64,000 bases of DNA, taken from assembly GCA_019637095.1 (NCBI GenBank), contig JAHBWG010000017.1:1-64000 (forward strand), given 5' to 3'. The notes beneath the pieces were generated by a model. It was not told where the DNA came from. It did not search any database and saw only the letters and a list, made by a program, of their open reading frames with translations. The position numbers and the translations under genes were made by a program. How positions within the stretch are numbered: position 1 is the stretch's first letter; each line of letters begins with the position of its first letter. This DNA comes from Sandaracinaceae bacterium. Lineage in GTDB: Bacteria > Myxococcota_A > Polyangia > Polyangiales > Sandaracinaceae. Of the stretch, positions 13,500 through 17,434 are shown in pieces.

Positions 13500-13991
13500 A
13501 TGACGCGCGCCTCGCTCCTCACGTTCGCGCTCCTGATCGCGCCCGGGCCGACCGCGTCGGCGCAGCCGCCGGAGGTCGCGCGCCCCTACGACGAGCGCGC
13601 GGACGCGCAGGCGCAGATCGACGCAGCCGTCGCGGCGTCGGCGCGGAGCTCGCGGCGCGTGCTCCTGATGTTCGGCGCGAACTGGTGCGTGTGGTGTCGC
13701 CGGCTCGCGTGGGTGATGCAGCACGACGCCGACGTCGCGCGCGAGCTGCGCGAGGGCTTCCGCGTCGTGCACGTCGACGTCGGTCCGCGCGGCTCGAGCA
13801 CCAACCGCGAGCTGGCGCGGCGCTATGGCGACCCGCTCGGGCAGGGCCTGCCCGCGCTGGTCGTGCTCGACGCGGCCGGCGCGGTCGCGCACGTGCAGGA
13901 GACCGGCTCGCTCGAGGCCGGCGATCGCCACGACCCGGCGCGCGTGCTCGCGTTCCTGCGCCGCTGGCGCCTCCCGCGCACGGGCCGGTAG
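13500..13991 (+). CDS. Periplasmic thioredoxin-like protein
   Basis: 163 residues with a signal peptide (cleavage probably after PTASA). The thioredoxin fold is signalled by VLLMFGANWCVWCRRL: the active-site Cys-Val-Trp-Cys occupies residues 63-66, and the cis-Pro loop reads GLPALVVLD. This resembles the thioredoxin_7/DsbD C-terminal group that reduces disulfides in the periplasm. Start ATG 13500 with TAAGCT 9 nt upstream and no ribosome-binding sequence. It is followed convergently, 10 nt away, by the MBL-fold gene. Substrate unknown; cytochrome maturation (operon at 37.9-43.1 kb) is one candidate pathway but is not linked. Confidence 0.85.
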   Translation: MTRASLLTFALLIAPGPTASAQPPEVARPYDERADAQAQIDAAVAASARSSRRVLLMFGANWCVWCRRLAWVMQHDADVARELREGFRVVHVDVGPRGSSTNRELARRYGDPLGQGLPALVVLDAAGAVAHVQETGSLEAGDRHDPARVLAFLRRWRLPRTGR

Positions 13992-14001
13992 CCTGGCGCC
14001 C

Positions 14002-14883
14002 TCAGATCTTCATCGCGCGCGGGTGCGCCCAGCTCTGGCCGGCGTGGAAGCGTCCGCGCTCGTCGCGCGCGACGCGCGCCATCGCGCAGTCGGGGTCGTG
14101 CGTGAAGAAGAGGCGGCCGTCACGCGCGAGCAGGTCCGTCAAGAGGGCTTGCTTCTCGTCGATGAGCTGCTCGGGGTATCGGTCGTAGCCCATCGTGATC
14201 GGCAGGTGCACCCACGGGCGCCCGGGGATCAGGTCGGCGGCGAACACGATGGGCCCGTCCGCGCTCGGCACCTCGACGAGCACGAGCCCGGGCGTGTGCC
14301 CGTCGGAGCGGTGGAGGCGGTAGTCGGGGCCGAGCGCGCGCGAGCCGTCCGCGTCCGCGACCTCGAGCCGACCGCTCGCCTCGAGCAGCGCGGGCAGCGC
14401 CTCGATGAAGCTCGCGCGGTCGCGCGAGTGCGGCGCCGTCGCGCGCGCCCACGCCTCTCTGCCGACGACGAAGGTCGCCTTCGGGAAGAGGAGCGAGGGC
14501 GGCTCGCCCTCGCGGTAGGCGGCGAGCAGCCCGCCGGCGTGATCGAAGTGCAGGTGGCTGAGCACGACGACGTCGACGTCCGCGTGCGTGATCCCGGCGT
14601 CGGCGAGCGACGCGAGCAAGACGTGTTGCGATTGGACGACGCCGAAGCGCTCGCGCAGCTTCGGCTCGAAGAACGCGCCGATCCCCGTCTCGAAGAGGAT
14701 CCACCGCGTGCCCTCGTCCGTGTCCTCGCGCACGAGCAGCGCCCGGCAGGCGAGCGGGATGCGGTTCTGCTCGTCCGGCGCGATCCAGCGCTCCCAGAGC
14801 GCGCGCGGCGCGTTGCCGAACATCGCGCCGCCGTCGAGGCGCTGCGTGTTGCCCTCGATCGCCCAGATCGTTCGCTCGGTCAT
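14002..14883 (-). CDS. Metallo-beta-lactamase-fold hydrolase
   Basis: 293 residues, complete. The metal site motif HLHFDHAGG (H110, H112, D114, H115) is intact, and further ligands are seen as [10 protein letters not shown] and [11 protein letters not shown]. Fold and spacing suit the cytoplasmic lactonase/hydrolase branch of the superfamily, which binds two metal ions and hydrolyses esters or lactones. No signal peptide. It is the last gene of a same-strand run with the two zinc-ribbon repeat proteins and the radical SAM gene, but the 36-nt gap and a TAGACC box 6 nt before the ATG suggest it may also have its own promoter. Confidence 0.85.
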
Positions 14884-14919: not shown

Positions 14920-15543
14920 TCACTCGCTCGGGAGGCCGGGGCCGCCGTAGAGCGGGGCGATCCCGCCGCCGTCGCTACCGGCGTCGAAGGGGATCACGCC
15001 GGTGCCCGCGTCGCGGCCGCCCGCGTCGAAGGGGACGATCCCGGTGCCCGAGTCGGTGCCCGCGTCCGTGCCCGTCGCGGCGTCCATGCCCTCGCCCGCG
15101 TCCGTGCCCGTCGCGGCGTCCATGCCCTCGCCCGCGTCGGTGCCCTCGCCCGCGTCGGTGCCCTCGCCCGCGTCGGTGCCCTCGCCCGCGTCGGTGCCCT
15201 CGCCCGCGTCCATCCCCGCCATCGAGCCGCCGTCGCTCGGCGCGCCGCCGCCGTCGTCCATCGGCGCGCCCCCGTCGCCGCCTCCGCCGCCGGCGTCTGC
15301 GAGCATCGCGGCGTCGGTCGCGCCGCCGGCGTCACCTGCGCCGACGCCGTCGCCACACGCGCTCGACGCGGCCATCGCCGCCGAGAACGCGAACGTCGCC
15401 GCGCGGCTCAGCCGCCGCGTCGGCTGTCGCTCCGGCGCGCGGTGGCGAAGCGACATCGGGAGCGCCTCACCGCAGAACGGGCAGAAGGGCTCGACCACTC
15501 GCACGTGCCGATCGCACGCCGTGCAAGGGAGCATGGTGTCCAT
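14920..15543 (-). CDS. Zinc-ribbon protein with lipobox-like segment and TDAGEG repeats
   Basis: 207 residues. A short zinc ribbon at the N-terminus (CTAC...CPFC, C-x2-C-x10-C-x2-C) leads into a basic stretch, a hydrophobic segment (ATFAFSAAMAASSAC) and a low-complexity domain of TDAGEG and MDAATG repeats, with IVPFDAGG, VIPFDAGS and a final IAPLYGGPGLPSE. The Cys after the hydrophobic segment could be lipidated, which would remove the zinc ribbon as an unusually long leader; otherwise the segment is a membrane anchor. A strong Shine-Dalgarno (AGGAGGT) precedes the ATG by 7 nt. It is a paralogue of the next gene upstream, and both lie downstream of a radical SAM/SPASM gene, suggesting they are its substrates (inference). 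Confidence 0.8.
   Translation of the reverse strand: MDTMLPCTACDRHVRVVEPFCPFCGEALPMSLRHRAPERQPTRRLSRAATFAFSAAMAASSACGDGVGAGDAGGATDAAMLADAGGGGGDGGAPMDDGGGAPSDGGSMAGMDAGEGTDAGEGTDAGEGTDAGEGTDAGEGMDAATGTDAGEGMDAATGTDAGTDSGTGIVPFDAGGRDAGTGVIPFDAGSDGGGIAPLYGGPGLPSE
15127..15216 (-). repeat. Five 18-bp tandem repeats encoding TDAGEG
   Basis: Four identical 18-bp units (15127-15198, unit beginning ctcgcccgcg) and a fifth diverged unit lie inside the zinc-ribbon gene. Each encodes one Thr-Asp-Ala-Gly-Glu-Gly hexapeptide, so copy number can change without a frameshift. Confidence 0.9.
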
Positions 15544-15600
15544 GAAGCGACCTCCTTCGAAGCGCGCCCAGGGTACCGACGCGCTCCGGCGCGAGCAACG

Positions 15601-16101
15601 TCAGTCGGCCGGGGGCAGCCCGTAGAGCGGCGCGACGCCGCCGTCGTCGTCCGGCGGGGGCAAGCCGTACGGCGGGGCGACGTTGCCCGCGTCGAAGCCC
15701 GCGTCGCTCGCGCCCGCGTCGACCTCGGCGCCCGCGTCGTCTCCGCCGTCGGGCGGGGGCAGACCGTACGGCGGTGCGATGTTGCCCGCGTCGTAGCCCG
15801 CGTCGTCTCCGCCGTCGGGCGGGGGCAGGCCGTAGGGCGGTGCGATGTTGCCCGCGTCGTAGCCGGCGTCCGTCGCGCCGGTCCCCGCGTCGCTCCCCGC
15901 GCCGTCGTCGCAGCCGGTCGCCGCGGAGGCCGCGAGCGTCGCGCCGAACACGAACGTCGCGGCGCGCCCGAGCCGCTCCGTCGGCGTCCGCGGGACGCGC
16001 GCCCTGAGCGAGGCGGGCAGCGCCTCGCCGCAGAACGGGCAGAAGGGATCTTCGGCGCGCACGTGGCGCGCGCAGCCGGCGCAAGCGATGAGGTGACCCA
16101 C
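15601..16101 (-). CDS. Zinc-ribbon protein with lipobox-like segment and APPYGLPPPD repeats
   Basis: 166 residues, paralogous to the next gene. N-terminal zinc ribbon (CAGC...CPFC, same C-x2-C-x10-C-x2-C spacing and shared PFCPFCGEALP), then a hydrophobic segment ending ASAATGC followed by acidic DDGAGSDAG. The rest is built from repeats of [IV]AP[PL]YGLPP[PA]D joined by GGDDAGYDAGN linkers: three full copies plus a C-terminal APLYGLPPAD. The start lies only 10 nt after the stop of the radical SAM gene, so the two are an operon. Short repeats with a fixed Tyr-Gly-x-Pro core next to a SPASM enzyme suggest a modified peptide or lipoprotein (inference). Family otherwise unrecognised. Confidence 0.8.
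   Translation of the reverse strand: MGHLIACAGCARHVRAEDPFCPFCGEALPASLRARVPRTPTERLGRAATFVFGATLAASAATGCDDGAGSDAGTGATDAGYDAGNIAPPYGLPPPDGGDDAGYDAGNIAPPYGLPPPDGGDDAGAEVDAGASDAGFDAGNVAPPYGLPPPDDDGGVAPLYGLPPAD
15731..15862 (-). repeat. Two 66-bp tandem repeats encoding the APPYG unit
   Basis: Units 15731-15796 and 15797-15862 are nearly identical 66-bp copies, each encoding a 22-residue block with IAPPYGLPPPD. A third, diverged copy lies at about 15650-15710. Recent tandem duplication is likely. Confidence 0.9.
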
Positions 16102-16111
16102 GCGCGGTAGG

Positions 16112-17434
16112 TTACTTCTCCGTGGTGCGGGCCGACAAGGCCGCCGGGTCGTCCTCGAGCACGAGCTCGAAGTGGCCGTGGTCGAACGGCAGGCCAGGGG
16201 CCTCGCTCACCTTCACGACGCGCTCGCGCTTGCCCTCGCGCTGCCGCTCGAGCGCGCGGTGGTGGCAATAGGGGTTGTTCCCCGCACGGCCGAACAGCAC
16301 GTAGCTCGTCCACGTGCAGCCTGCGCGGCACACGTCCGCGTAGTAGCAGTCGCGGCAGTACCCCCAGAGGTCCTCGACCGTGCGGTCGCGCGTGTAGCGC
16401 AGCGGCGCCGTCTGCTCCCAGATCTCGCGCAGCGAGCGGTCGCGGATGTTGCCGCCGACCCACTCGTCGGTCGGCAGCGAGGGGCAGCCCTTGATCGCGC
16501 CGTCCGCCTCGATGCCGAGCGTCGCGCGGCCCGCGCCGCACGAGGCCATGTGCCCGCGCGGCATCGTGCCGCGCAGCGCGCTCTCGTAGGGCCCGAAGTA
16601 GCCGATGTTGTTGCCGGGCCAGAGGCGCACCCGCGCCGCGTCGCAGCGCTCCTTCAGCTCCCCGAGCATCGGGAAGAGGTCGAGCAGATCGTACGGCTGC
16701 AGGAGCACGTCGGGCTCGTCCGCCGCGCGTCCCATCGCGACCGTGAGCTGGATCTGCCACGAGTGGACGCCCGCCTCGATGATGCGCTCGAGGATGAACG
16801 GCATGAGCGGCATCGAGAGGCGGTTGATCTGCGTGTTCGCGCTGACCTTGATGCCCGCCGCGCGCAGGTTGTCGAACGCGCGCATCGCCGCGTCGTAGCT
16901 GCCGGCCACGCCGCGCAGGCGGTCGTGGGTCTCTCGGTCGCCATCGATCGACACGCTCGTCGACTGCAGGCCCGCCTCCGCCGCCTCGGCGCACCGCTCG
17001 GGGGTGAGCCCGCGCCCCCCCGTGGTCAGCAGCGCCATCATGCCGCGCCTGCGGATGTGCCGCAGGACCTCGGTCCAGTCGTCGCGCAGGTACGCCTCGC
17101 CGCCGATCAGGCTGACCTCCTTGACGCCGAGGTCCGCCATCTGGTCCACGAGATCGAGGCACTCTTCGGTCGTGAGCTCGTCGGGCCGGTCACGCCCCGC
17201 GCGCGAGCCGCAGTGGCGGCACGCGAGGTCGCACGCGAGGGTGATCTCCCAGACCGCGTAGATGGGCCGGTAGCGCGCGTCCTTCTCGCGCGGCTCGAGC
17301 AGCGGCAGGTGTCGCTTGGACGCCGGCGCGTGCGGCGCGATCGGCAGCGCGCGCTTCGGACGCTCGGCGTAGAGGAGCGCCTCGCGCGCGGCGGGATCGA
17401 GCGGGTCGGGGCCGCGCTCGTCGACGATGCTCAT
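16112..17434 (-). CDS. Radical SAM/SPASM enzyme
   Basis: 440 residues from ATG 17434 (MSIVDERG), preferred over an upstream ATG at 17467 because TACCCT lies exactly 7 nt before it. The radical SAM cluster motif CxxxCxxC is CDLACRHC (C68, C72, C75), followed by IGGEAYLRDDW, the usual glycine-rich SAM-binding region. The C-terminal SPASM region is Cys-rich: CGAGRATLGI, GAIKGCPSLP, YCRDCYYADVCRAGC and GNNPYCHHRAL, enough for one or two auxiliary 4Fe-4S clusters. SPASM enzymes generally modify ribosomal peptides or proteins (thioether or C-C crosslinks, epimerisation) in the cytoplasm. Immediately downstream are two repeat proteins that could be its substrates. Divergent from a hypothetical gene and lgt. 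Confidence 0.9.
   Translation of the reverse strand: MSIVDERGPDPLDPAAREALLYAERPKRALPIAPHAPASKRHLPLLEPREKDARYRPIYAVWEITLACDLACRHCGSRAGRDRPDELTTEECLDLVDQMADLGVKEVSLIGGEAYLRDDWTEVLRHIRRRGMMALLTTGGRGLTPERCAEAAEAGLQSTSVSIDGDRETHDRLRGVAGSYDAAMRAFDNLRAAGIKVSANTQINRLSMPLMPFILERIIEAGVHSWQIQLTVAMGRAADEPDVLLQPYDLLDLFPMLGELKERCDAARVRLWPGNNIGYFGPYESALRGTMPRGHMASCGAGRATLGIEADGAIKGCPSLPTDEWVGGNIRDRSLREIWEQTAPLRYTRDRTVEDLWGYCRDCYYADVCRAGCTWTSYVLFGRAGNNPYCHHRALERQREGKRERVVKVSEAPGLPFDHGHFELVLEDDPAALSARTTEK

Follow-up and report, generated by a model that had tools for sequence, protein, structure and literature searches.

The 64,000-nucleotide stretch of a Sandaracinaceae genome analysed here (the window) encodes a SPASM radical SAM enzyme followed by two small lipoprotein-like proteins, each with an N-terminal zinc ribbon and at least one X-Tyr-Gly site. 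Sequence comparisons support the view that the enzyme and the zinc-ribbon proteins genuinely belong together as enzyme and substrates, the shared zinc-ribbon tag probably delivering both small proteins to the enzyme. The enzyme family and the site sequence both match splicease systems, and we therefore propose, as the probable reaction, an excision of tyramine at X-Tyr-Gly that would leave alpha-keto-beta-amino acids on exported lipoproteins.

Organization of the locus

The enzyme gene is complete and is followed, after exactly 10 nucleotides, by the first small gene and, after a further 57 nucleotides, by the second, which is preceded by a strong Shine-Dalgarno-like sequence (GAAGGAGGTCGCTTC-ATG). 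A first-pass annotation of this DNA had described a SPASM gene and two paralogous small genes behind a 10-nucleotide gap, and the sequence agrees with that description. The features are listed below.

16112..17434, minus strand: SPASM radical SAM enzyme, putatively splicease-type from profile scores and tree, 440 residues, ATG at 17434
17210..17233, minus strand: C68-x3-C72-x2-C75, the enzyme's radical SAM cluster motif, unchanged in all 41 aligned enzymes
16265..16540, minus strand: seven-cysteine SPASM region of the enzyme, C299 to C390 (Pfam SPASM)
15601..16101, minus strand: first candidate substrate, 166 residues, with zinc ribbon, lipobox segment and four XYG sites
16030..16083, minus strand: zinc-ribbon leader of the first candidate substrate, CAGCARHVRAEDPFCPFC
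15910..15966, minus strand: hydrophobic segment of the first candidate substrate, ending at lipobox-like Cys64 (ATGC)
15829..15837, minus strand: XYG site 1, P-Y-G in NIAPPYGLPPPD
15763..15771, minus strand: XYG site 2, P-Y-G in NIAPPYGLPPPD
15664..15672, minus strand: XYG site 3, P-Y-G in NVAPPYGLPPPD
15619..15627, minus strand: XYG site 4, L-Y-G in GVAPLYGLPPAD
14920..15543, minus strand: second candidate substrate, 207 residues, with zinc ribbon, lipobox segment, DAG-rich linker and one XYG site
15472..15525, minus strand: zinc-ribbon leader of the second candidate substrate, CTACDRHVRVVEPFCPFC
15355..15405, minus strand: hydrophobic segment of the second candidate substrate, ending at lipobox-like Cys63 (SSAC)
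14944..14952, minus strand: XYG site of the second candidate substrate, L-Y-G in GIAPLYGGPG, at the end of the protein

The enzyme matched Pfam Radical_SAM (PF04055; 84.8 bits) and SPASM (PF13186; 34.1 bits), both above cut-off. Its SPASM cysteines (299, 317, 360, 363, 369, 373 and 390) were likewise invariant in all 41 sequences of the alignment, and its predicted fold is nearest to those of SkfB, PqqE and SuiB.

Both small proteins start with a C-x2-C-x10-C-x2-C ribbon, in which PFCPFCGEALP is common to the two, and continue with a hydrophobic segment ending in Cys and then with repeats or linkers that contain X-Tyr-Gly. Five such sites lie beside the enzyme, four in the first protein and one in the second, as would be required of spliceotide precursors. 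The paired ribbons, the hydrophobic segment running to Cys, and the four YG repeats with a single IAPLYG had all been annotated in the same way before; the repeat of the second protein had been given as TDAGEG, which is present, but MDAATG and VIPFDAG-like units occur as well. No Nif11 or NHLP leader was matched by the two small proteins in a Pfam search.

Elsewhere in the window, positions 14002-14883 (minus strand) encode a protein of metallo-beta-lactamase fold whose closest match is YtnP lactonase, at a score below cut-off, and positions 13500-13991 (plus strand) a thioredoxin-like protein that has stayed close to the system at L014, L015 and L048 (L numbers denote the loci compared).

Pairing of the enzyme with zinc-ribbon proteins

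When the genome collection was searched with a simple pattern, a zinc-ribbon protein with YG was found nearby in 53 of 78 named enzyme relatives, and among the remaining named loci several run into a contig end or carry ribbon proteins that read YS, YA or YR. The source genome holds two further close paralogues of the enzyme, each adjoining its own zinc-ribbon protein with YG. About a dozen proteins across this genome bear the tag, most of them encoded away from the enzymes. YG was present in all 12 leader matches with E < 1e-4, and absent from weaker generic ribbons (an FHA protein and one other).

The survey was extended to 379 Myxococcota genomes, with thresholds of E <= 1e-60 for the enzyme and E <= 1e-5 for the leader, and the two lists were compared by eye. 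The enzyme was found in 146 genomes and the leader in 86, and 85 of these 86 also encode the enzyme; at the same threshold no leader match was found in 61 of the 146 enzyme-bearing genomes. The leader profile spans the ribbon and the signal segment only, and with it 40 proteins encoded away from the enzyme were picked blind to YG. All 40 contain YG downstream of the leader (shuffled mean 12.2, maximum 22 in 2000), and Gly follows 82 of their 93 Tyr residues, versus 13.7 after shuffling.

The first-pass annotation had put forward the enzyme and the zinc-ribbon proteins as a candidate linked system and had suggested a search for co-occurrence across Myxococcota; adjacency and genome overlap both uphold the link. 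It had also held that repeat proteins common without an enzyme neighbour would speak against it. Taken literally this is what we see, for many are unlinked, yet nearly all of the genomes that bear the leader encode the enzyme. The same unlinked proteins could be invoked for another reading, in which a common family of zinc-ribbon lipoproteins, unrelated to the enzyme, lies beside it by chance. The co-occurrence at genome level refutes that reading, against which also stand the adjacency, the matching of leader subtype to enzyme clade and the leader-like ribbons fused to related enzymes (see below), and we regard it as scarcely credible.

Relationship of the enzyme to known maturases

PlpX is a splicease that excises tyramine from X-Tyr-Gly. 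The PlpX/PlpY splicease of Pleurocapsa was reportedly described by Morinaka in 2018, and tyramine splicing is said to have been known since that year. The best NCBIfam match of the window enzyme was TIGR04103 (nif11-class peptide radical SAM maturase 3, which we take to be IPR026482), with 512.1 bits against a cut-off of 725. PlpX has been placed in SPASM class IPR026482 (PMC11002830). The second match was TIGR03913 (GDL motif maturase), with 483.3 bits against 591.75, and the window enzyme does not have the C-terminal zinc ribbon of GDL enzymes. The profile search against TIGRFAM maturase models, which had been recommended beforehand, hence names TIGR04103 and TIGR03913 as nearest families while leaving the enzyme below both cut-offs; it clears none of the curated equivalog cut-offs.

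The third family, TIGR04133, followed far behind with 165.5 bits (cut-off 425). Membership of the Bacteroidota rSAM/lipoprotein system TIGR04133/TIGR04134, a pairing to which the first-pass annotation had pointed, would fit with this third rank and with the lipoprotein-like partners of a SPASM enzyme in both systems. We reject it as very improbable: the score is far under the cut-off, TIGR04134 matched neither small protein and nothing over its cut-off anywhere in the source genome, and the partner architecture differs in having a zinc ribbon.

In a tree of 101 enzymes, built by a quick method and with many forks open, the window enzyme stands on its own branch among Myxococcota enzymes with zinc-ribbon precursors. 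The same large clade holds a Nostoc TIGR04103 enzyme, GDL/DUF1843 enzymes, and a Myxococcaceae group with MYGVF precursors. The Nostoc enzyme clears TIGR04103 (853 bits), is 53% identical to the window enzyme, and adjoins a Nif11 precursor with the C-terminal end SIALYGLPPELF. Azospirillum (TIGR03913) and Acidobacteriota enzymes adjoin DUF1843 proteins, most of which have PYG or LYG near their start.

The window system thus resembles PlpX/PlpY in its clade and in an X-Y-G target with near-identical surroundings (PLYGLP). It differs in that its precursors carry a zinc-ribbon leader and a lipobox, whereas PlpX-type precursors have a Nif11/nitrile-hydratase leader, and in that inspection of the neighbours revealed no PlpY/RRE-like gene adjoining the window enzyme. 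With TIGR03913/DUF1843 it shares the [P/L]YG and a matching zinc ribbon, which however sits at the C-terminus of the GDL enzyme and on the substrates in the window; moreover, the window substrates are lipoprotein-like, whereas DUF1843 proteins are short and helical.

The X-Tyr-Gly site

In 95 zinc-ribbon proteins at enzyme loci, Gly follows 212 of 251 Tyr residues, YG having been a selection criterion, and Pro, for which there was no selection, stands at +3 from Tyr in 181 of the 212 YG. In a set of 306 unique sites, the residues commonest as X are A, L, P, R, M, V, D, I, E, C and K; P or A predominates at -2, and 251 sites have P at +3. Splicing at XYG, with X as the homologised residue, would be expected to leave X free to vary and to hold Tyr-Gly constant.

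PlpA2 has the splice tag PIRPLYGLPI, and both MYG and LYG serve as sites for PlpXY (PMC10533398). VAPLYGLPP in the window is closely similar both to this tag and to SIALYGLPP in the Nostoc TIGR04103 precursor, as is seen when the window repeats NIAPPYGLPPPD and GVAPLYGLPPAD are compared with the end of the Nostoc precursor. The splicease literature consulted names X residues other than Pro, which occupies X at three of the five window sites. The first-pass annotation had proposed that Tyr and Pro in YGLPP are the modified residues. The YG repeat is indeed the likely site, but since TIGR04103 and TIGR03913 are the nearest families, excision of tyramine is likelier than modification of a Tyr or Pro side chain.

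The enzyme could nevertheless act on the same leader and site by other chemistry, such as a Tyr crosslink, epimerisation or oxidation of Tyr or Pro side chains. SPASM enzymes perform many reactions, the family was assigned by homology, with an identity of about 53% and scores short of the equivalog cut-offs, the window enzyme has its own branch, and some sites read YA, YS or YR. On the other hand, PLYGLP matches verified splicease substrates and the TIGR04103 precursor almost letter for letter, and it is X that varies freely, Tyr and Gly being conserved. We therefore consider other chemistry unlikely, and tyramine excision is preferred.

Gly is not absolute, because YS, YA or YR replaces YG in a few ribbon-tagged proteins beside close enzymes (L073, L077 and L095, with ends IYSAAF, IYAAAI or VYRATP), and YM or YA is found in the GDL/DUF1843 precursors at L126 and L128 (MYMATM or LYAAGI). 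In the enzyme clade of L003, X is the lipobox Cys itself (SACYG). YG comes right after the lipobox Cys (ACYG) at L003, L028, L037, L038, L039 and L113, several of which continue with acidic repeats of the DxDxDGYCG type. At L033 and L081 the enzyme adjoins another type of precursor, which has PYGCVFPDxAC at its end and a conserved pair of Cys flanking YG. Myxococcaceae-type precursors (L102, L103, L107, L116, L119) combine two copies of [PA][ML]YG[VI][FV] with a helix; only at L116 and L119 does a small zinc-ribbon protein, encoded separately, come after the enzyme, and none was found at L102, L103 and L107.

The zinc ribbon as a recognition module

A profile built from Myxococcota precursor ribbons matched the C-terminus of GDL/DUF1843-type enzymes (L100, L101, L117, L118, L126 and L128), the N-terminus of a Tropicibacter enzyme (L127), and the small separate proteins adjoining the L119 and L116 enzymes. 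These enzyme-fused and in-trans ribbons score 14.6-36 bits, and unrelated ribbons <= 10.5. The TIGR03913 model extends through the C-terminal ribbon part. A ribbon on the enzyme and a ribbon on the precursor were never found together among the loci examined. Because of the fusions to related enzymes we interpret the zinc ribbon as a recognition module, which appears to be mobile, with positions on the substrate or on related enzymes as well as in trans.

Leader subtypes follow enzyme clades. Long-spacing ribbons make up 9 of 11 in one enzyme clade versus 2 of 91 elsewhere, and the CxxCS[SG]F subtype 5 of 6 in another clade versus 0 of 96 elsewhere, both counts ignoring shared ancestry. The spacing in the ribbon fused to the Tropicibacter enzyme is long, as is typical of the clade to which that enzyme belongs. 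The three enzyme clades represented in the source genome have leaders of the types CxxC-x10, CxxC-x14 and CxxCSSF. The ribbon behaves, then, like the recognition leader that had been suggested for it. Models of the enzyme, which were of good quality (mean pLDDT 86 and 88), gave no firm indication of where the ribbon would dock.

An identity of the zinc ribbon with PlpY was considered and rejected; PlpY is a truncated RRE according to PMC11002830, and a zinc ribbon is lacking from the Nostoc protein that takes the place of PlpY.

Export and lipidation

The proteins look like lipoproteins, as had been suggested earlier: a lipobox-like [GA]C is present in 84 of 95 zinc-ribbon proteins, usually 20-45 residues past the ribbon, but it is preceded by an unusually long N-region of about 45 residues. 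The support drawn from the linked lgt gene falls, since lgt was found beside the system in none of about 100 related loci, and its position in the window is accidental. In another genome, the L162 substrate has an OmpA domain after the YG site, from which it would follow that at least some products are proteins and not short peptides. L181, in the source genome (contig C68, about 68503), has a ribbon, APKYGGPP and a C-terminal transmembrane segment but no lipobox; its YG site would precede a membrane anchor.

Conventional small RiPPs offer a different outcome, in which the repeats are cut apart and freed as short spliced peptides (e.g. NIAPPYGLPPPDG units). The first protein does have repeat units with DAG linkers, and some other spliceotide systems use leader cleavage and PCAT export (PMC10885120), but no protease or PCAT gene was seen adjoining the window genes, and both the frequent lipobox-like Cys and the stable OmpA domain of L162 argue against release. 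We find this outcome quite improbable and prefer an anchored product.

Proposed mechanism and significance

We propose that the splicease-type enzyme is cytoplasmic and that its substrates are proteins docking on it through an N-terminal zinc ribbon. The hydrophobic segment would then direct the spliced protein to export, and cleavage and lipidation at the lipobox Cys would remove the zinc-ribbon leader. The product may be a lipid-anchored Pro/Asp/Gly-rich chain displaying reactive ketoamides; its most likely role would be protease inhibition, with X in the P1 position. The three enzymes of the source genome would serve the dozen or so tagged proteins. The beta-residues of spliceotides are reported to confer protease inhibition (PMC10373908; PMC11117315), and a role in inhibiting proteases at the surface would be in keeping with ketoamides that are anchored, present at several sites and varied in X.

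In a wider and more tentative reading, which may well not hold in full, the ribbon is a movable splicease module and the Myxococcota enzyme a genome-wide editor of lipoprotein backbones, with a dozen or more anchored proteins per cell carrying ketoamide beta-residues that differ in X (P1), and with one clade (SACYG) in which the lipidated residue itself, the lipobox Cys, is spliced.

A 2022 survey by Scott et al. (Chem), the title of which reportedly includes proteins, may list some of these loci. Tyramine splicing is already known; the zinc-ribbon leader and the genome-wide lipoprotein set look new, and our literature search returned no paper that brings zinc ribbon, RiPP, radical SAM and leader together. 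PMC10533398, which cites Scott et al. 2022, mentions 27 other characterised and 939 predicted splicing systems.

If the proposal is true, proteins without a Pfam or NCBIfam model above cut-off gain a testable annotation, and a portable tag is named, a short zinc ribbon (about 18 residues) by which substrates are brought to the enzyme and which might provide a new splice tag for putting ketoamides into proteins. Backbone splicing, so far mainly a matter of peptides, would be linked to the surface lipoproteins of predatory and soil bacteria, and the role of ribosomal beta-amino acids would become testable in culturable myxobacteria.
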